Source: Acidobacteriota bacterium (lineage in GTDB: Bacteria; Acidobacteriota; Blastocatellia; Pyrinomonadales; Pyrinomonadaceae). Taken from it: 52,635 bases of DNA. Position 1 is the stretch's first letter, and every line of letters begins with the position of its first letter. The stretch is from positions 1-52,635 of the forward strand of contig QHXM01000080.1 in NCBI GenBank assembly GCA_003222945.1. Direction: 5' to 3'. The notes beneath the pieces were generated by a model. The model saw nothing but the letters and a program-made list of their open reading frames with translations. It was not told the origin of the DNA and made no database searches. The position numbers and the translations under genes were made by a program. Below, piece by piece: positions 8,736 to 52,635 of the stretch.

Positions 8736-9482
8736 ATGATTGAAGCAATTGACCTGACGAAACGTTATGAGGAAAGCACCCTCGCGCTCGATGCGCTGAA
8801 TCTGAAGGTTGCGCCGGGCGAAATCTATTTTCTGCTCGGCGCAAATGGCGCGGGGAAAACGACCGTCATAAACATCTTCCTGAATTTCGTAGAACCGACT
8901 GCGGGTCGCGCGCTCATCAATGGCGTTGATGTTACGGCTGATGCGCTTGAGGCCAAGAAATATCTCTCTTATGTCTCGGAAGATTTGATGCTCTACGGGA
9001 ATTTCACAGCGCGGCAGAACCTTGATTTTTTCGCGCGGCTGGGCGGAAAGCAAGGCTTGAAGAGGGACGACTACTATCAGGTCTTGCGCGAGGTGGGATT
9101 GGAAGAACGTGCGTTTGAGCAGAAGGTGAAGGAGTTTTCCAAGGGGATGCGCCAGAAGGTCGGGCTTGCTGCTGCAATCGTCAAAGATGCTCCGGCCATA
9201 CTTCTGGATGAACCTACATCGGGGCTTGATCCGAAGGTCGGCGCAGAGTTGATGGAGACTCTCTCGGAGTTGCGCTCGCGCCGTAAGGCCATACTCGTCG
9301 CCACGCACGACATCTTTCGCGCGACCGAAGTTGCGGACCGCATAGGGATTATGAAGGAAGGGCGAAAAGTTATGGAGCGCACGCGCGGCGAGCTTGAGCA
9401 TGAAGACTTGCAGACTCTCTATCTCGATTACATGCGCGGCGGATTTCGGACTGATATGAGAACGGGCACGGCTGGGTTATAG
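8736..9482 (+). CDS. ABC transporter ATP-binding protein
   Basis: Walker A GANGAGKTT, signature-like FSKGMRQK, Walker B AILLDEPTSGLD. Confidence 0.93.
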   Translation: MIEAIDLTKRYEESTLALDALNLKVAPGEIYFLLGANGAGKTTVINIFLNFVEPTAGRALINGVDVTADALEAKKYLSYVSEDLMLYGNFTARQNLDFFARLGGKQGLKRDDYYQVLREVGLEERAFEQKVKEFSKGMRQKVGLAAAIVKDAPAILLDEPTSGLDPKVGAELMETLSELRSRRKAILVATHDIFRATEVADRIGIMKEGRKVMERTRGELEHEDLQTLYLDYMRGGFRTDMRTGTAGL

Positions 9483-10549: not shown

Positions 10550-10595
10550 GAGATTAAACAATATCATAGGAAATCCTATGTAAGGCCGAAAGAAG

Positions 10596-10770: not shown

Positions 10771-13383
10771 GTGTGGCGCGCTTGGCTTCTCACAGAGTGG
10801 TCGGAAGGTGTGGCGGTCGCGCTTATCGAAAGCGGCCTCTGGAGGTCTTCAGGTTCTTACTTGAACAGAGTTTTCCCCGCGAAAGTTTTTTGCGCGCGGC
10901 TCTTTTTCGCGCTCGCGCTCGTGGTCTTCGCGGCCACGAATTTAAGTGCGCAGCAGACGAATCCGGTTGACCGTCAGGTCACGAACCCCATGACGGACAC
11001 GCCGAACGTCAACCCTCTTACACAGGACCAGCCCGTTCGCACTCCCAAACCAGCCGGACAGACTACTCAGGCACAGAGCACGGATGTATTAACGGTCAGC
11101 GCAGCGAAGGAGACGGTTTCGGGACCGAAGAATGCGCTCGTCTTCGTTTATGAAGGTAATGTTGACGCGCGCATAGGAACTTATCGCCTGCAAGCCGACA
11201 AGATAACTGTTTATGAAGCTACGAACCGCGTCGTAGCCGAAGGCAACGTGATTCTGGATCAGGCGGACCAGCAGCGCATAACAGGCTCGCGCGCCGAGTG
11301 GAACTACCGCACCAAAACTGGCTCCTTCACAAACTCGACGGGCTTTACCAACCAGACGCAGGACGGCACCGTCATCTATTTCACAGCCGACACAGTTGAA
11401 AAGATAAGCCTTGACACAGTAGTAGTCATCAACGCGGAGGTCACGGCCTGCGAGGACAACGTGCCCAAGTGGAGTTTCAAAGGGCGGCGCGCTGAGATAA
11501 AGACGGGTGACCGCGTTCGCATCAGGTCCGCCGTCTTTCACGTCAAAGGTATTCCGGTTTTCTATCTTCCATACGCTTCCATCTCAATCAAGAGGCGAGA
11601 CCGCGCGTCCGGGTTTCTGACTCCGACCTTCAGTGGCTCAGGTAACAAAGGTTTCAGATTCTCGGCGGCCTACTATCAAACTCTTGGGCGCTCGGCTGAC
11701 GCAACCTTTCGCACGGACATCTACACGGCGCGCGGGCTTGGTTTCGGCCTTGACGTGCGAACGAAGGCCAATTCGCGCTCCTTCATGGATTTTGGTTTCT
11801 TCGCCGTGAAGGATCGAATCTTTGGACCAAAAGAGAGTCCGCAGAATCCCAATCAGGGAGGCTCGAGTCTTTACGTTCACGGCGTTCATTACTTCCAGAA
11901 CGGCTTTCTGGCCGTAGCGGATGTCAACATCACTTCGAGCCTGACGTTTCGGCAAATCTTCTCGGACAACATACAGATGACCATAAGCCCTGACGAGCGC
12001 TCGCAGGTCTTCGTCAATAAAAATTTCGGCGACTACAGTTTCAATTTCCTTGCGCGCTCGCAGGTCACGTCATTGCCGAGTGCGCGCATACGCACGCGCG
12101 AGCTTCCGAGCATCACACTCGATAAACGTCCTTCGGCTCTGCACTACTTCAAGCGAGTGCCCGTCTATTTCTCGTTCGAGGGCGGCCTTGAGGGTGTGAG
12201 CCGAAAGGAGACTGTCGAAGACGCGCCTCTGTTCGCACAGCAGGTGAGCGGCCTGGCGGTCGTGACGCCTTCGATGGTCCAGCGGCTTGACCTGCACCCG
12301 CGCTTTTCAGTTCCTTTCAGCTTCGCGGGCTGGAGTGTCACGGCGATGGCTGGCCTTCGTGCGACCTATTACTCGAATTCGATTGACCCTTCGACGCGGC
12401 TAATCTTAGCGCGCGATGTAGTGCGCGGCTACGGGGAATTTGAGTTGGACGTGCGACCGCCCGCGCTTGCGCGCTCCTTCCGCCACAGTGACGGCTCGTT
12501 CTTCTTCCGTCACGTCATAGAGCCTTACTTCGTCTATCGGCGCATCGCGGGCAACAGCAGCTTCGAGCGCATCATACGTTTCGACGAAACGGACACGATA
12601 GCCGACACGAACGAGATTGAGTTTGGCGTAACGAACCGCTTCTTCACGCGCCGCTCTACGGAGAACGTGAACGCGAAGGCCGCGCGCGAAAACAATAAAG
12701 AGCGCATTCCGCTATCCTCCCAACCCTACGAGGCTCTGACCATCACAGTGCGCGGCAAATATTTCTTCGACCCATATTTCGGCGGCGCGCTCATTCCGGG
12801 ACAGAGAAACCAGTTCTATCCGATCAACACATTTTCGGGCTTTACTTACGGCGGAGTGCCGCGCCGGTTCTCGCCTCTGAACATTGAAGGGCGTTATCGT
12901 CCCAGCCACACGCTGGTCGCAGACGTGCGCGCGGATTTCGACGTGCAGACAAAGGGCGTGCGCGCCATGTCCGCTACATTCGGTATGACCAGACCGCTCA
13001 TACAGGTCTTTCAGAACTTCTATTACGCTCGCGCCATAACTCTAGTGCCGTCGCTGGCGAGGTTTGCCAACGCCGAGGGCAAAGAGCCTGGAACTGTGCG
13101 CGGCTCGCAGTGGAGTCCTTCGGTTTTCTTAGGCAAGCGTGAGCGCGGAGTATTCGGCGGCGTCTCTTTCTTCTTCGACTTTCAGCACGCGCTGGGACAG
13201 CAGAAATCTTCGCTCGTAAATTCCATCGTCACGCTCGGCTACACATTCGACTGCTGCGCTCTCGTCGTACAGAACTACACCTTCAACGTAGGGTTGAGAA
13301 AAGAGAATCGCGTCGTCTTCAGCTTCCGCCTCAACGGGATAGGCACTTTCGGCACGGAGCAGATTGGTCAGGTGTTCCGATAA
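10771..13383 (+). CDS. lptD: LPS-assembly protein LptD (OstA) family
   Basis: OstA-like region YEGNVDARIGTYRLQADKITVYEATNRVVAEGNV, IPVFYLPYASISIKRRDRASGFLTP, long beta-barrel C-terminus. Confidence 0.88.
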   Translation: MWRAWLLTEWSEGVAVALIESGLWRSSGSYLNRVFPAKVFCARLFFALALVVFAATNLSAQQTNPVDRQVTNPMTDTPNVNPLTQDQPVRTPKPAGQTTQAQSTDVLTVSAAKETVSGPKNALVFVYEGNVDARIGTYRLQADKITVYEATNRVVAEGNVILDQADQQRITGSRAEWNYRTKTGSFTNSTGFTNQTQDGTVIYFTADTVEKISLDTVVVINAEVTACEDNVPKWSFKGRRAEIKTGDRVRIRSAVFHVKGIPVFYLPYASISIKRRDRASGFLTPTFSGSGNKGFRFSAAYYQTLGRSADATFRTDIYTARGLGFGLDVRTKANSRSFMDFGFFAVKDRIFGPKESPQNPNQGGSSLYVHGVHYFQNGFLAVADVNITSSLTFRQIFSDNIQMTISPDERSQVFVNKNFGDYSFNFLARSQVTSLPSARIRTRELPSITLDKRPSALHYFKRVPVYFSFEGGLEGVSRKETVEDAPLFAQQVSGLAVVTPSMVQRLDLHPRFSVPFSFAGWSVTAMAGLRATYYSNSIDPSTRLILARDVVRGYGEFELDVRPPALARSFRHSDGSFFFRHVIEPYFVYRRIAGNSSFERIIRFDETDTIADTNEIEFGVTNRFFTRRSTENVNAKAARENNKERIPLSSQPYEALTITVRGKYFFDPYFGGALIPGQRNQFYPINTFSGFTYGGVPRRFSPLNIEGRYRPSHTLVADVRADFDVQTKGVRAMSATFGMTRPLIQVFQNFYYARAITLVPSLARFANAEGKEPGTVRGSQWSPSVFLGKRERGVFGGVSFFFDFQHALGQQKSSLVNSIVTLGYTFDCCALVVQNYTFNVGLRKENRVVFSFRLNGIGTFGTEQIGQVFR

Positions 13384-13385
13384 AA

Positions 13386-13462
13386 GCAGGGATGAGGGCG
13401 GCAGGGATGAGGGATGAATGAAGAATAGTTTTACTTTATCCCTCCGCCCTCATCCCTTTGTT
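13386..13462. repeat. Heptad palindrome (GGGATGA type)
   Basis: GGGATGAGGGCGG (13389-13401) pairs with CCGCCCTCATCCC (13444-13456). Confidence 0.85.
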
Positions 13463-16700: not shown

Positions 16701-17051
16701 AATGAATTCATGTCAAGAACTGAATTCCAGACCAAGTATGGCTCTCTAACAGATGCAGCTTTCCGAACTGCACTTGTACAGGCAGCAGGAATTGATCCAG
16801 GTATTGCTTTCCCACAGACAGGGATGACACGAGCACAGTTCCTACGAGCTTTCGTTGAAAGCACAGCCGTCTATCAGAAGTTCTACAACCAGTCATTTGT
16901 TGTAATGCAATACTTCGGATACCTCAGACGCGATCCTGATGCTCTCTACACAAACTGGATTCAGACTATGAATCAGAATCCGAACGATTACAGAACCATG
17001 ATTAACGGCTTCCTGAACTCTTCTGAGTATTTCCTGAGATTCGGACCGTGA
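13764..17051 (+). CDS. Secreted zincin-like protease with Calx-beta and C-terminal DUF4214 domains
   Basis: Signal peptide; VATHEIGHALGFHS (HExxHxxxxxH); Calx-beta ERFTLTLSNPTGATLG; DUF4214 YIDFLGREPDPGGLAGW. Confidence 0.85.
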   Translation: MLQFPQSFNPQHRTISHRDFFKRFRGALAIGLAALLFLAPLGFRVSAQQQQSGTSSKVQQANQFTIYQDASGNVVCREATLLEREQAGNVDTESLGLRQINHLEYQKGDRATKTAPGENAGTGLTIILRATTQLQGNQAAVDAFNRAAQNWESIIQSPVTIYIDVDYGSTNFGRAWGSGVLGSTSAPSNAYPYQSVRTNLVAEASDEGNTTKQAISNALPQTTVPSDLGDKSSTVVSDSAARALGLLPAAAQSTDSAARIAFNSNFSFDFNPDDGISSGQTDFDAVATHEIGHALGFHSEAGATARPSIWDLYRFRTGTTTSTFTTAQRILTIGGSPDALQYYFVPGNSELGLSTGGPSGATTNGGDGWQSSHWKHFSGCSSSGYIGIMDPAISSGCRRTITGNDALALGSFGYNLTNSAPPPPPPPAPTPPANDNFANAQTINGCSGSVNGVSIGATHETGEPSHDPSDTSSNSPGHTVWYQWQAPSSGSATITTEGSEFDTILAIYTGTSVNSLTRALKPDGTPAFNDDVQDGVITTSTVTFNATAGTVYKIAVDGWGGDSGALKLNWTESGCSQVKIDQAITFGALSTRTYGDAPFTVSATATSGLPVNFQILSGPATVSGNTVTITGAGTVIVRASQSGDPSFNAAPNVDQSFTVAKATPVITWNNPANIFVGTPLSSTQLNATASTPGTFSVAGTFSYVPSAGTVLNLGVNQLSVNFTPSDTTNYNSAAKTVQLTVVPLPTVTLSSATYSVGESNGNVQIIVNRVGDTSSASSVNYATNDTAGLAACNQANTGIASSRCDYATTIGTLQFAAGETTKTIFIPIVNDSYAEGNERFTLTLSNPTGATLGSTSNATITIVDDDQTTGGNPIVDPAFFVRQQYIDFLGREPDPGGLAGWQGILNNCGTTVAQPCDRIEVSAGFFRSPEFQDRGYFVFRFYPVALGRNPNYNEFMPDLAKVSGFLTDAQLETNKVAFVNEFMSRTEFQTKYGSLTDAAFRTALVQAAGIDPGIAFPQTGMTRAQFLRAFVESTAVYQKFYNQSFVVMQYFGYLRRDPDALYTNWIQTMNQNPNDYRTMINGFLNSSEYFLRFGP

Positions 17052-17070: not shown

Positions 17071-17162
17071 AAGGGATGAAGGATGAGGGATGAATGAAAG
17101 AAAAGAGAGAGTACTTTCGTTCTTTCTTTACTTCATCCCTCATCCCTCATCCTTCATCCCTT
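17071..17162. repeat. Heptad palindrome (GGGATGA type)
   Basis: AAGGGATGAAGGATGAGGGATGA (17071-17093) is the exact reverse complement of 17140-17162 (23 nt). Confidence 0.95.
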
Positions 17163-29676: not shown

Positions 29677-30513
29677 TTAGAACCGGTTGCGGTACTCCGT
29701 GGAATTAACGAAGCCGTTAATCATCGTGCGGTAATCACCCGTCTTGTCCATAGTCTTAATCCACTCTAAGTATAGAATGTCAGGATCGCGGCGTAGATAA
29801 CCGAAATACTGCATCACTACGAAAGCAGTGTTGTAGAACTTGTTATAAACGGCTGTGCTCTCTACAACGGCTCGAAGGAATTGTGCTCGTGTCATTGTCC
29901 CGTTCGGGAAGCCGATGCCAGGATCAACTCCAGCCGTCTGCACTACCGCGTCATGAAAAGCTGAATCACTCAAAGAGCCGTACTTCTGCTGAAACTCAGG
30001 TCTTGACATGAAGTCGCTGATAAAGGCTACTTTTGCAGCCTCCAACTGAGTGTCATCAAGGAAACCGCTGACACGACGTAGATCAGGCATGAACTCTTTA
30101 TAGAAAGCGTTGCGTCCCAAAGATGCTATGTAGAAGCGGAAGATGAAGTATCCTCTGCCTTGAAACTCCGGTGAGCGGAAAAAGTCTGATGAGACTTCTA
30201 TACGGTCGCAGGGCTGCGGATACTTTGAGCCGCAGTTAGTCAGTACATCCATCCATCCCTGAAAGCCTGCCGGTTCGGGCATACGGCTGAGAAAGTCGTT
30301 GTAGTGTTGCTGTATGAAGAAGTCGTTGTCGTCAATCGTGATGCGCTGGTTCGTTCCGGGACGCAGACGCAGGGGTTTGACCTTGATATCACCGTAGTAA
30401 AGATCGGACGGGAGATTCGGGTCGTCTGTGACAATCCTGAGCGTCGGCGCGCTCTGCCCGAACGCAGTTATAGCCGTGAGGGCGACTATTAAAATGGTAA
30501 TGGCGAATTTCAT
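29677..30513 (-). CDS. Secreted DUF4214-domain protein
   Basis: Signal peptide MKFAITILIVALTAITAFGQ; DUF4214 region closely matching the C-terminus of 13764..17051. Confidence 0.88.
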   Translation of the reverse strand: MKFAITILIVALTAITAFGQSAPTLRIVTDDPNLPSDLYYGDIKVKPLRLRPGTNQRITIDDNDFFIQQHYNDFLSRMPEPAGFQGWMDVLTNCGSKYPQPCDRIEVSSDFFRSPEFQGRGYFIFRFYIASLGRNAFYKEFMPDLRRVSGFLDDTQLEAAKVAFISDFMSRPEFQQKYGSLSDSAFHDAVVQTAGVDPGIGFPNGTMTRAQFLRAVVESTAVYNKFYNTAFVVMQYFGYLRRDPDILYLEWIKTMDKTGDYRTMINGFVNSTEYRNRF

Positions 30514-40230: not shown

Positions 40231-40355
40231 ATTAGCCACAGAGACACAGAGGCACAGAGAAGAATTTGAGATAAGAAATTTGAAATCTCAAAGCTGCTAT
40301 ATGATATTGCATATCTTCTATCTTCTCTCTGTGCCTCTGTGTCTCTGTGGCTAAT
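40231..40355. repeat. CCACAGAG-type intergenic palindrome, copy 3
   Basis: ATTAGCCACAGAGACACAGAGGCACAGAGA ... TCTCTGTGCCTCTGTGTCTCTGTGGCTAAT. Confidence 0.95.
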
Positions 40356-48504: not shown

Positions 48505-50880
48505 ATGGCTTTCGACAAGGCAAAGGTTCTGCGTGCGGCTGAGAAGTATCTTGCCCAAGGGAAAATCCCCGCAGCCATAAAAGAGTATCGCCAGATTGTT
48601 GAGAACGATCCGCAGGATTTCACGGCGCTCAACATGCTCGGCGACCTCTACACGCGCGAGAACAACAAACAGGAAGCCATGCAATGCTTCTTGCGCATCG
48701 CCGAACATTACCGCGAAGAGGGCTTTCAGAGCAAAGCCATAGCGATGTACAGGAAGATGGACCGCCTCAATCCCGGCAGCCCTGAGATAGCAAACAAGCT
48801 CGCCGTGCTTTATGAAAGTCAAGGACTCATTGTTGACGCACGCCATCAGTACATGGTCGTTGCAGAAGCATGGCAGCGCGACGGGCAGACGCGCAAGGCT
48901 TTGGAAGTCTTCCGCAAGGTCGCAGACCTTGACCCTCAGAACACAGAGGCGCGAATAAAGCTCGCTCAGGGCTTCATGCACGAAGGCATGGAAGAGGAAG
49001 CGGCTCAGGCATTCTCGGAAGCGGGCGCGCAATTTGTGGCTCGCAAAGAACATGAGCGCGCCATAGGGCCTTACACTTTAGCTTTACAACTGCGACCGCA
49101 CGACTACCAATCCCTTAACGGACTTCTAAACGCGCATATAGCGCTCGGCACGCCCGACGAGGCTGTGGAAGTCCTGGAGCACGCATTTCAGTCAAAGCCC
49201 GACGACATTGAAATCCTCTCTATGCTCGCGGGCGCTTATCTTGAAGCCGAAGACGCGCCCGCAGCCGAGCGAACGTTCATCTCGCTCACACAGACGGAAT
49301 CCACAAACTACACGCGCCTGATTGATGTAGCTCTGCTCTATCTTAAACTCGGCCAGACGAGCGATTCTGTCAGAGTTCTCTCAAGCATCACGGAACAGAT
49401 GCTCTCGGCGCGCGAAGACGAGAAGCTGATGGAGCTTCTGAACGAAATCCTTGCGCGCGATCCTGAGCATGTCGAAGCCCTTCGTCTTCTGGTGCGCGTC
49501 TATTCATGGCAGCGCGATGATGATAAGCAGCGGCAGACGCTAGAACGCCTTGTCGAAGCCGCCGAAGCCGCAGGGCTTGAGGACGTAGAACGCTCCGCTC
49601 TCCAACAACTGGCGCTCTTCTCTCCTGACCAGCGCTACCTTGAGCGCCTGACCGCTCTGGGCTTTGAGCCTGAGCAGAAAGTGGAAGAGCCAGAGCCGGA
49701 GCCTGCGGTCGAAGAGATTCCGTCGTTCGAGAGTTTCGCTTTCGTCAGCGAGGAGGAGACGGCGTCCGCCATGGGACTTCCCAAAGCGGAAGAGGCTACA
49801 GAGTTCGAGTTCAACTCGGTCGCGCAACCTGTAAACGATCCTTCCTCATCGTTCGCCGATCTTAACGAAGACTGGAATCCTCCGGCACAAAGCGAAGTCG
49901 AAGCGCCCTCGTCCACAGGTTTTCAGGAATTCAGTTTCGGTGACATTGCCGCGACCCCTGATGAACCTGCAACACCTTCTTCCGATACGATTGACCCGCG
50001 CCACGAAGAATTGCTGCGGCAGGAACTGAGCAGCGTGGACTTCTATCTGGTGCAGGGCTATATGGACATAGCCGCTGACACTCTGGACATGCTCGAACGA
50101 CAGTTCGGCGCGCACGAAGAGATCAACGCACGCCGCGCGAAGTCAAATCAGCAGACGACGCCTTCCGACGCTGCTGCTGCTGCTCCGCCGCCTCAAGATG
50201 CTCAGGTCGAGTTCGAGAGCTTTGCGCGCTACGATGTGGCTGAAGAATCTGCGCCTGTCGAAGCCGATAGCATAAAGGTTGAAGAGGTCATCGCAGAAGA
50301 AGAGCCTACGCCACAGCCTCAAGCGCCCGAACAGCAACAAGCTGAAACGCCTGTGGCGCTCGCACCCATCGCGCAGCCGGAGAGCGCCGAAACAAAGCCG
50401 GGAATTGATCCGGGCCTTGCAGAAATCTTTGATGAATTTCGCACCGCCGAAGAAGAAGAATCACCCTCTTCGGATGGCGATTACGAGACTCACTACAATC
50501 TTGGCATAGCCTACAAAGAGATGGAGCTTCTGGACGAAGCTGTCAAAGAGTTTCAGACTGCCGCCGAGATGACACAGCCTGCGGACGGCACGACGCGCTA
50601 TCTGCAATGCTGCAACATGCTGGGCCATTGCTTTATGAATAAGGGAATGCCGCGTCTTGCCGTCATGTGGTTCAAGAGGGGCCTGGAATCTCCCGGTCAC
50701 ACAGAAGACGAATATCAGGCGCTTCGTTACGATCTAGGCACAGCCTACGAGCAGATGGGCGACCTCAATAATGCCATAGACGTATTCACGGAAGTTTACG
50801 GCATAAACATCTCCTATCGAGGCGTCTCGGAAAAACTGCGCGAACTTCAGGAGCAGAAATCAGTGAAAAGTGAAAAGTGA
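48505..50880 (+). CDS. TPR-repeat protein with low-complexity acidic linker
   Basis: Multiple TPR units, e.g. DFTALNMLGDLYTRENNKQEAMQCFLRIAEHY; E/P/Q-rich middle region. Confidence 0.9.
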   Translation: MAFDKAKVLRAAEKYLAQGKIPAAIKEYRQIVENDPQDFTALNMLGDLYTRENNKQEAMQCFLRIAEHYREEGFQSKAIAMYRKMDRLNPGSPEIANKLAVLYESQGLIVDARHQYMVVAEAWQRDGQTRKALEVFRKVADLDPQNTEARIKLAQGFMHEGMEEEAAQAFSEAGAQFVARKEHERAIGPYTLALQLRPHDYQSLNGLLNAHIALGTPDEAVEVLEHAFQSKPDDIEILSMLAGAYLEAEDAPAAERTFISLTQTESTNYTRLIDVALLYLKLGQTSDSVRVLSSITEQMLSAREDEKLMELLNEILARDPEHVEALRLLVRVYSWQRDDDKQRQTLERLVEAAEAAGLEDVERSALQQLALFSPDQRYLERLTALGFEPEQKVEEPEPEPAVEEIPSFESFAFVSEEETASAMGLPKAEEATEFEFNSVAQPVNDPSSSFADLNEDWNPPAQSEVEAPSSTGFQEFSFGDIAATPDEPATPSSDTIDPRHEELLRQELSSVDFYLVQGYMDIAADTLDMLERQFGAHEEINARRAKSNQQTTPSDAAAAAPPPQDAQVEFESFARYDVAEESAPVEADSIKVEEVIAEEEPTPQPQAPEQQQAETPVALAPIAQPESAETKPGIDPGLAEIFDEFRTAEEEESPSSDGDYETHYNLGIAYKEMELLDEAVKEFQTAAEMTQPADGTTRYLQCCNMLGHCFMNKGMPRLAVMWFKRGLESPGHTEDEYQALRYDLGTAYEQMGDLNNAIDVFTEVYGINISYRGVSEKLRELQEQKSVKSEK

Positions 50881-50968
50881 AAAGTGAATAGTGAATAGTA
50901 GTTTTAACTATTCACTTTTAACTTTTCACTTTTCCGCTTTGACGATTTACCATTTACGATTTACGATT
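50862..50968. repeat. Heptad palindrome (AGTGAAA type) plus tandem GATTTAC heptads
   Basis: AGTGAAAAGTGAAAAGTGAAAAGTGAATAGTGAATAGT ... ACTATTCACTTTTAACTTTTCACTTTT; then GATTTACCATTTACGATTTACGATT. Confidence 0.95.
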
Positions 50969-51355
50969 ATGGCAGCCAGGCTCAGCGTAATATTCTACAT
51001 TCTGCTCTGCGTTGAAGTGGGCATAGTGCTCACAGTGCTGCCCTGGTACTCGCCCTTCGGTCTCGGCGATTGGGGAAGCAACTACTTTCTGCTCTACGCT
51101 GCGCACAAGATTGGCTCACAAGGCTTGCAGCACGCAGTCTCTTCCGGCTGGTTTCGCGGCGCTGTCACTGGTCTCGGATTATTAAATTTGAGCGTGGCCG
51201 TTTGGGAGATAGTCCATTTCAAACAGACCGTTCGCGCGCTTCAAGGCGGAGCAAGCGCTACGCCCGCGCAGAAAGATGACGCGAAAAGTTCAGCACCCGA
51301 TCATCTACCTGATAACGAGCGGCAAAACGAGACCGGCCAGCAGCCCGGCCAGTGA
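50969..51355 (+). CDS. Small membrane protein of unknown function
   Basis: MAARLSVIFYILLCVEVGIVLTVLPWYSPFGLGDWGSNYFLLYAAHKIGSQ; two or three TM segments. Confidence 0.75.
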   Translation: MAARLSVIFYILLCVEVGIVLTVLPWYSPFGLGDWGSNYFLLYAAHKIGSQGLQHAVSSGWFRGAVTGLGLLNLSVAVWEIVHFKQTVRALQGGASATPAQKDDAKSSAPDHLPDNERQNETGQQPGQ

Positions 51356-51944
51356 AGATTTCCAGGATGTTCTTACGCTCGTCCGCGCAGGTTGCCGTGC
51401 GCGCGTCTCTCTAATTCAACTACGCGAAAAGAATCTTCCGGCAAGAACGCTTTACGAACTTGCTCTGCGCTGCGCCGCTATAACCAAAGGCACAGAGACG
51501 CGACTTCTAATCAACGACCGCGCGGACATAGCTAGCACAGCAGGCGCAGACGGCTGCCATCTCACAACACGCTCCATCGAAGCGGGCGTCATTCGCCGCA
51601 CCTTCGGCTCTGGTTTTTTGATAGGCGTCTCGACACATTCTCTTGCAGAGGCACAGAGGGCGCGCGACGGCGGCGCAGACTTCGCAGTCTTCGGTCCGAT
51701 CTTCGACACTGCATCGAAACGAATCTACGGCCCGCCTGTCGGCATGGACCATTTACACGAAGCCGCCGAGACCCTCAGCCCGTTTCCAATCATCGCGCTT
51801 GGCGGCATCACACTTGAGAATGCGGCCAGCGCTCTCAACGCAGGTGCGAGCGGAATCGCCGCGATTCGACTTCTGTCAGATACTAAAAACCTGAAGCGAA
51901 CAATAGAAGGGATAAGAAAGGCAAGTATGAAGGCGGAAGGATGA
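51276..51944 (+). CDS. thiE: Thiamine-phosphate synthase
   Basis: VSLIQLREKNLPARTLYELA, LLINDRADIASTAGADGCHL, ADFAVFGPIFDTASK, IIALGGITLENAASALNAGASGIAAI. Confidence 0.93.
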   Translation: MTRKVQHPIIYLITSGKTRPASSPASEDFQDVLTLVRAGCRARVSLIQLREKNLPARTLYELALRCAAITKGTETRLLINDRADIASTAGADGCHLTTRSIEAGVIRRTFGSGFLIGVSTHSLAEAQRARDGGADFAVFGPIFDTASKRIYGPPVGMDHLHEAAETLSPFPIIALGGITLENAASALNAGASGIAAIRLLSDTKNLKRTIEGIRKASMKAEG

Positions 51945-52007
51945 AGGATGAAGAGAGAAGGTTCAACACCTCGCTTTCTCACTTCAGCCTTCCACCTTCA
52001 TACTTGC
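51921..52007. repeat. Heptad-like palindrome (GAAGGAT type)
   Basis: GCAAGTATGAAGGCGGAAGG (51921-51940) vs CCTTCCACCTTCATACTTGC (51988-52007), 19/20 complementary. Confidence 0.92.
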
Positions 52008-52046
52008 TTTTCGCCTCGCTCTTTATGGCTTGATATACTGTTTCAG

Positions 52047-52635
52047 ATGCCGACCAATGACTTATTGCCAGTTGCGCTCACCATCGCCGGATTCGACCCG
52101 TCTGGCGGCGCAGGCATCATAGCGGACACGAAGACCTTCACAGCTTTCGACTGCTTTGCGACTGCTGCTATCACGTCGCTCACGTTTCAGAACACTAAGG
52201 GCATACGGGGCGCGGCGCATCAGACGGCTGAAACTGTGCGCGCACAAGTTCTGCCTGTCATAGAAGAGTTTCAAGTGGCAGGAGCGAAGACCGGAATGCT
52301 GCCTACGCGCGAGATAATACAGGAGGTCGCGCGCCTGTTCCGTGAAACTGAATTGCCCGCACCCATCGTTGATCCGGTCTTGCGCTCCACATCAGGTTAT
52401 GATCTGATTGAGGAGGACGCGCTCCACGCGCTCATTAAGGAACTGATGCCGCTTGCGCGCCTAATCACACCGAACATTCCTGAAGCCGAACATATCACGG
52501 GTCTCGTCATAAAAGATGAAGAAGGAATGATTCGCGCCGCACACGCAATGCGAGAGATGGGCGCGCACGCCATCTTAGTAAAAGGCGGACACCTGAAGAG
52601 CAGGGATGAGGGCGGCAGCGTGAGGGATGAAAAAA
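52047..52635 (+). CDS. thiD: Hydroxymethylpyrimidine/phosphomethylpyrimidine kinase (runs off window end)
   Basis: VALTIAGFDPSGGAGIIADTKTFTAFDCFATAAITSLTFQNT; DPVLRSTSGYDLIEEDAL; LITPNIPEAEHITG; ILVKGGHL. Confidence 0.92.
   Translation, partial: MPTNDLLPVALTIAGFDPSGGAGIIADTKTFTAFDCFATAAITSLTFQNTKGIRGAAHQTAETVRAQVLPVIEEFQVAGAKTGMLPTREIIQEVARLFRETELPAPIVDPVLRSTSGYDLIEEDALHALIKELMPLARLITPNIPEAEHITGLVIKDEEGMIRAAHAMREMGAHAILVKGGHLKSRDEGGSVRDEK
52599..52635 (+). repeat. GGGATGA-type heptad repeat arm inside the thiD reading frame
   Basis: AGCAGGGATGAGGGCGGCAG (52599-52618) is identical to 13385-13404. Confidence 0.85.

Follow-up and report, generated by a model that had tools for sequence, protein, structure and literature searches.

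The stretch of DNA analyzed here (the window, 52,635 nt) is a whole contig of an assembly of 325 contigs that is about 90% complete, and it stops at position 52635 inside a repeat. On the forward strand close to this end we found thiE (51276–51944), that codes for thiamine monophosphate synthase (Pfam PF02581, E = 4.3e-50), and, as its downstream neighbor, the N-terminal two thirds of thiD (52047–52635), coding for the hydroxymethylpyrimidine/phosphomethylpyrimidine kinase and 79% identical to its relatives. The likely start of thiD is MPTND at 52047, in a frame that is open from 51948. The ORF matches the Pfam family Phos_pyr_kin (PF08543, E = 1.7e-55), and the N-terminal ribokinase-like kinase fold that goes with membership in ThiD is present; the match covers profile positions 1–169 of 246, and the GxGC catalytic motif would lie beyond the contig end.

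The coding part of thiD is intact and free of stops as far as VKGGHL (52578–52595), the conserved end of a strand, in which K-G-G-H is invariant in the family alignment. Directly behind this point, on the same strand, comes the arm of a dispersed hairpin repeat (52596–52635), translated as KSRDEGGSVRDEK and cut on its right side by the contig end; in the thiD frame V-K-G-G-H-L is followed by K-S-R-D-E-G-G-S-V-R-D-E-K up to the last codon available. The left boundary of the arm can be placed only to within about 6 nt, since L062, a relative with a short loop, also has CTGAARAGC. As had been noticed from the sequence, the 20-mer AGCAGGGATGAGGGCGGCAG at 52599–52618 is found again at 13385–13404, exact at both places, and the translation of 52578–52635 agrees with its being read in the thiD frame immediately after KGGHL. 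It is also correct that the window ends before the outcome of the insertion: the remaining part of thiD is absent from the assembly, and therefore the outcome in this gene is unreadable. The C-terminal half of ThiD was found on no other contig of the same assembly, where the only matches were weak (E = 0.0175 and 1.95), the better of them in an unrelated stretch. Neither was thiD found in the same-genus genome G001 (assembly 82% complete), and a ThiD protein search of the contig database retrieved one family record only.

The repeat in thiD extends beyond the 20-mer, with 23 nt from 52596 matching the intergenic copy at 96% and 34 nt matching a copy on another contig at 97%. When a 596-bp stretch of thiD was used as query against its own genome, 32 out of 32 off-target matches fell within its last 51 bases; therefore, the repeat alone, and no other part of thiD, is repetitive. 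Genome-wide there are 53 copies of the 20-mer within 3 mismatches, compared with 2 for the reversed-pattern control and a chance expectation of 0.03 per window at up to 3 mismatches. The repeats are composed of modules of ca. 7 nt (GGATGAG, GGATGAA and GGCGGCAG), and periods of 7 or 14 dominate the tandem repeats of the window. The intergenic copies are hairpins of ca. 75–110 nt, with arms made of these modules flanking a variable loop and frequently with AARAGCAGG at the start and its complement at the end; as single strands they fold far better than shuffled sequences (z from -6.1 to -14.8). Three hairpins of the window, all on the forward strand, are the copy with both arms at 13382–13460 (a long hairpin, -52.1 kcal/mol, z = -6.1), a hairpin with GGGATGA-type heptamer arms of the same word family at 17071–17162 (z = -9.5), and a related one between thiE and thiD at 51916–52012 (z = -10.5). 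This last hairpin overlaps the 3′ end of thiE, its left arm forming the C-terminal tail of the protein and the stop. No Rfam family matched the repeat region, the sole Rfam match being a tRNA. Depending on the reading phase, the arms are open in 24, 12, or 0 of 41 copies, and among these 41 the only distinct copies well inside a long ORF are those of thiD and thiL. The copy in thiD is a CGTGAGG variant that leaves the thiD frame open.

Contigs frequently end in repeats of this type, as described for heptamer repeats (PMC4679880), and this repeat has dozens of copies in the genome, so the possibility that thiD was wrongly joined to a copy from elsewhere has to be considered. We think such an assembly artefact improbable: the junction is located exactly at the sole site where the relatives carry in-frame repeats (see below), the frame is kept, and the last 34 nt of the contig are exact in no other assembled copy (97% for the best).

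A ThiD query ending at GGHLK matched 113 of 119 Pyrinomonadaceae genomes, and 109 loci were read. Insertions were counted in 105 family ThiD proteins relative to L062, whose ThiD is 79% identical to that of the window. Over these 105 proteins the sole site with insertions of more than 3 residues was position 178 (L062 numbering), after KGGHL. There, at least 5 residues were inserted in 56 genomes and at least 10 in 40, with a maximum of 36, and the loop running from KGGHL to the D-x-L of the next strand has between 6 and 43 residues, being short in about half of the family. Outside the family, in the wider phylum, the loops were uniform, and in 66 of 71 ThiD matches the net insertion did not exceed 4 residues.

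The DNA of the long loops carries the mark of heptamer repeats. Of 48 long loops, 42% reached an identity of at least 0.8 at lag 7 (0 of 2,400 control segments of equal length from the same genes), and 7 was the best lag in 32 of the 48. The words vary by genus and include GGCGGAA, GGCGAAA, TTTTGGA, GGGGTCA, GGTCAGA, and AAATCCG; in L061, the nearest relative whose word is a different one, the loop contains four GGAGTCA/CGAGTCA units. According to the original prediction, an insertion would be contradicted if relatives had the same residues from unrelated codons; what we found is that the residues of the relatives differ and come from different repeats. Several long loops contain no clear repeat; these may have eroded or have arisen in another way. 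Most inserts are heptamer arrays in a single orientation, and a palindrome is found in some only: L087 has a whole palindrome in frame (arms of 26 nt, 92% complementary, 65 nt apart), inverted arms of 17 nt were confirmed in L123, and the loops of L074 and L078 appear to be similar. The complementary right arm that had been expected past the contig end is thus confirmed in two relatives and is not the rule. When the loci were searched for an inverted partner arm of the thiD insert, just 2 of the 48 long loops had one, close to the start of thiD. As a separate observation, L100 and L109 have a heptamer array, AAATCCAAAATCC, at the start of ThiD (KSKIQNPKSKICLTIAG, ca. 390–455), so that the repeat can also form the N-terminus.

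In ten relatives we compared the loop, together with its thiD flanks, with the genome it came from. The non-thiD matches listed were all in the inserts, including 8 flanking bases at most, and among these matches at least six genomes (L065, L087, L101, L109, L116, and L123) had copies of their own insert. On a tree of 106 rows from which the loop was left out, parsimony gives at least 13 changes in repeat state and 16 in the long/short state, counts that come from one tree with some forks open and that do not separate gain from loss. A different origin for the loop arrays would be local, by polymerase slippage and not by copying of dispersed repeats. In many bacteria no class of long simple repeats is more abundant than heptamers, for which an origin by slippage has been suggested (PMC4692102, PMC4679880). 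The perfect four-copy arrays in the thiD loops of L101 and L154 would fit this origin, and for such arrays insertion and local expansion are indistinguishable. However, the thiD segment of the window is a compound of modules that match intergenic copies over 20–34 nt, the insert words of the relatives are dispersed in their own genomes, and the palindromic inserts of L087 and L123 are not slippage products, all of which makes slippage an unlikely explanation.

In every relative whose contig reaches GxGC the frame was resumed and the motif was present, even though the search query stopped at GGHLK and hence did not ask for it. An AlphaFold2 model of the ThiD of L087 (25 sequences, mean pLDDT 84.8) matches solved ThiD structures, and its residues 177–208 fall below a pLDDT of 50 between intact strands of an otherwise confident ThiD fold. 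According to this model, the 42-residue insert of L087 is a disordered loop in an intact kinase fold. The loop that accepts the inserts is exposed to solvent, can lengthen freely and lies away from the catalytic residues, and the inserts themselves differ freely among the relatives in sequence, length and hydropathy.

These data bear directly on the suggestion that the gene is decaying, i.e., that the repeat disrupted thiD, which would now be a pseudogene. The contig does stop within the repeat and the C-terminal half is missing from the assembly, and two of the three reading phases of the repeat would mostly run into stops. Against this, thiD uses the most permissive phase and is open to the contig end, the coding sequence upstream shows no damage, and all the relatives with comparable inserts are in frame and keep the catalytic motif. 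A missing fragment is moreover expected because the assembly is only about 90% complete. Decay appears therefore very unlikely.

We consider it very probable that the window contains an in-frame capture of a dispersed hairpin repeat arm by a permissive loop of ThiD. The part of the original prediction according to which a dispersed repeat had entered a conserved enzyme gene, much as the palindromic elements of Rickettsia do, is well supported by the relatives, in which other repeats are in frame and ThiD resumes, while the outcome in the window itself stays unread. In the sequence of events that we propose, hairpin repeats would spread by copying across these genomes, and an arm would be copied in frame into the ThiD loop between the KGGHL strand and the next one. 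Selection would purge the repeats from most coding positions and keep those that are open, in frame and located in extensible loops. The protein would then have a disordered, tail-like loop, after which the kinase fold resumes. In the window, thiD presumably resumes past the contig end and is functional, the repeat probably arrived by copying from other copies, and the insertion site would be accounted for by selection and not by targeting.

The second thiamine kinase, ThiL, provides a parallel case. The other in-ORF copy of the repeat in the same genome is found in thiL, just before GIGDDA; the start region of this gene is bracketed by inverted GGGATGA arms (L043/L243, contig C3, ca. 8821–8971), the right arm being coding, and relatives show the like with other words. 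Since the PF00586 target list was swamped by PurL, the ThiL set was gathered with a ThiL query instead. Of its 35 family genes, 12 have a heptamer array just before GIGDDA, in a stop-free strand, and in 7 of 11 relatives tested an arm of the complementary word (at least 16 of 18 matches) precedes the thiL start codon. In genus g29 (L274, L275, and L276) GGTCAGA-type arrays are found in another ThiL loop, at codon ca. 158, with a word of the same type as in its thiD, and L278 has a heptamer array at codons ca. 236–260 of ThiL. Inside other ORFs, the 207 kb around the thi genes contained almost no array.

It could be proposed that the inserts serve the thiamine pathway, for example by tuning ThiD and ThiL through an added loop or a hairpin in the RNA. 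The restriction of the in-ORF copies of this genome to thiD and thiL, the same-word arms upstream of thiL and the scarcity of arrays in the 207-kb sample all go in this direction. Yet the inserts vary freely in all the properties mentioned, the thiD loop is short in about half of the family, a partner arm is lacking near most thiD inserts, and the wide array sampling was confined to the thi neighborhoods. A role in the pathway is thus hardly probable, and its stricter version, in which the repeats are kept specifically in thiamine-phosphate kinases, with loop inserts in thiD, paired arms around the thiL start codon whose words change jointly from genus to genus, and an RNA or DNA hairpin tuning thiamine synthesis, looks slightly less probable still. 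Within the thi neighborhoods sampled, the thiL and thiD arrays may be either a mark of thiamine kinases or merely one of length-tolerant loops.

The in-frame capture has its closest precedent in the RPE and WPE of Rickettsia and Wolbachia (Ogata et al. 2000, as reviewed in PMC2229807 and PMC3767692). These are dispersed hairpins of ca. 100 bp, mostly intergenic, some of which are in frame within conserved enzyme genes whose proteins tolerate them, and orthologs have already been reported to carry them repeatedly at the same site (PMC3767692). Like RPE (dispersed palindromes of ca. 100–150 bp), the repeat of the window has intergenic copies that are hairpins of similar type. As to the in-frame insertion, the left junction is seen in the window thiD and the right junction in relatives only. 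In contrast, the thiD repeats consist of words of ca. 7 nt that vary by genus, and in ORFs single arms are the commonest form. The host, a Pyrinomonadaceae-like member of the Acidobacteriota and not of the Rickettsiales, and the lack of a match in Rfam also set them apart. The thiD repeat works like the RPE/WPE insertions but, by its host and, as far as the Rfam search shows, by its sequence, it is not a member of either.

Heptamer repeats have been described in cyanobacteria, Xanthomonas and Beggiatoaceae (STRR, GGGAATC, and TAACTGA), where nearly all of them lie outside genes or at their ends (PMC4692102, PMC4679880). The repeats of the thiD family resemble them in being dispersed tandem 7-nt units, mainly intergenic, with many copies, about four units per array and words that differ between taxa. 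However, in the Pyrinomonadaceae many lineages carry the arrays within the same conserved enzyme loop, and the intergenic copies are mostly in inverted pairs. Inverted repeats embedded in conserved coding genes, as those of thiD are, have been described in the mitochondrial genes of Nematomorpha, although those palindromes are mitochondrial, from an animal and without reported heptamer arrays (PMC6649704). Our literature search found no paper linking phosphomethylpyrimidine kinase to tandem repeat insertion, and none on heptameric repeats in Acidobacteriota.

This amounts to a natural experiment on one enzyme loop that, within a single bacterial family, has taken up many unrelated repeats. It allows protein tolerance to be separated from element sequence, something that the single cases of Rickettsia cannot do, and it connects the poorly understood bacterial heptamer repeats with coding sequence. 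Sister species with and without the insert provide dated insertions for studying how repeats spread. There is also a warning for annotation, in that loop differences in these proteins reflect recent repeat inserts and not functional divergence.

Further hairpins of the window use other 7-nt words (AGTGAAA, CAGAATC, and ACTGACG). The AGTGAAA heptamer hairpin (50858–50943) provides the C-terminal KSVKSEK and the stop of the ORF at 48505–50880. A perfect inverted repeat of 30 nt with CACAGAGA-type units is located at 40231–40355, with related copies at 10591 and 6776. Finally, the regions 16824–17029 and 29693–29895, situated 12.7 kb apart, form an inverted duplication of ca. 200 nt with 76–80% identity.
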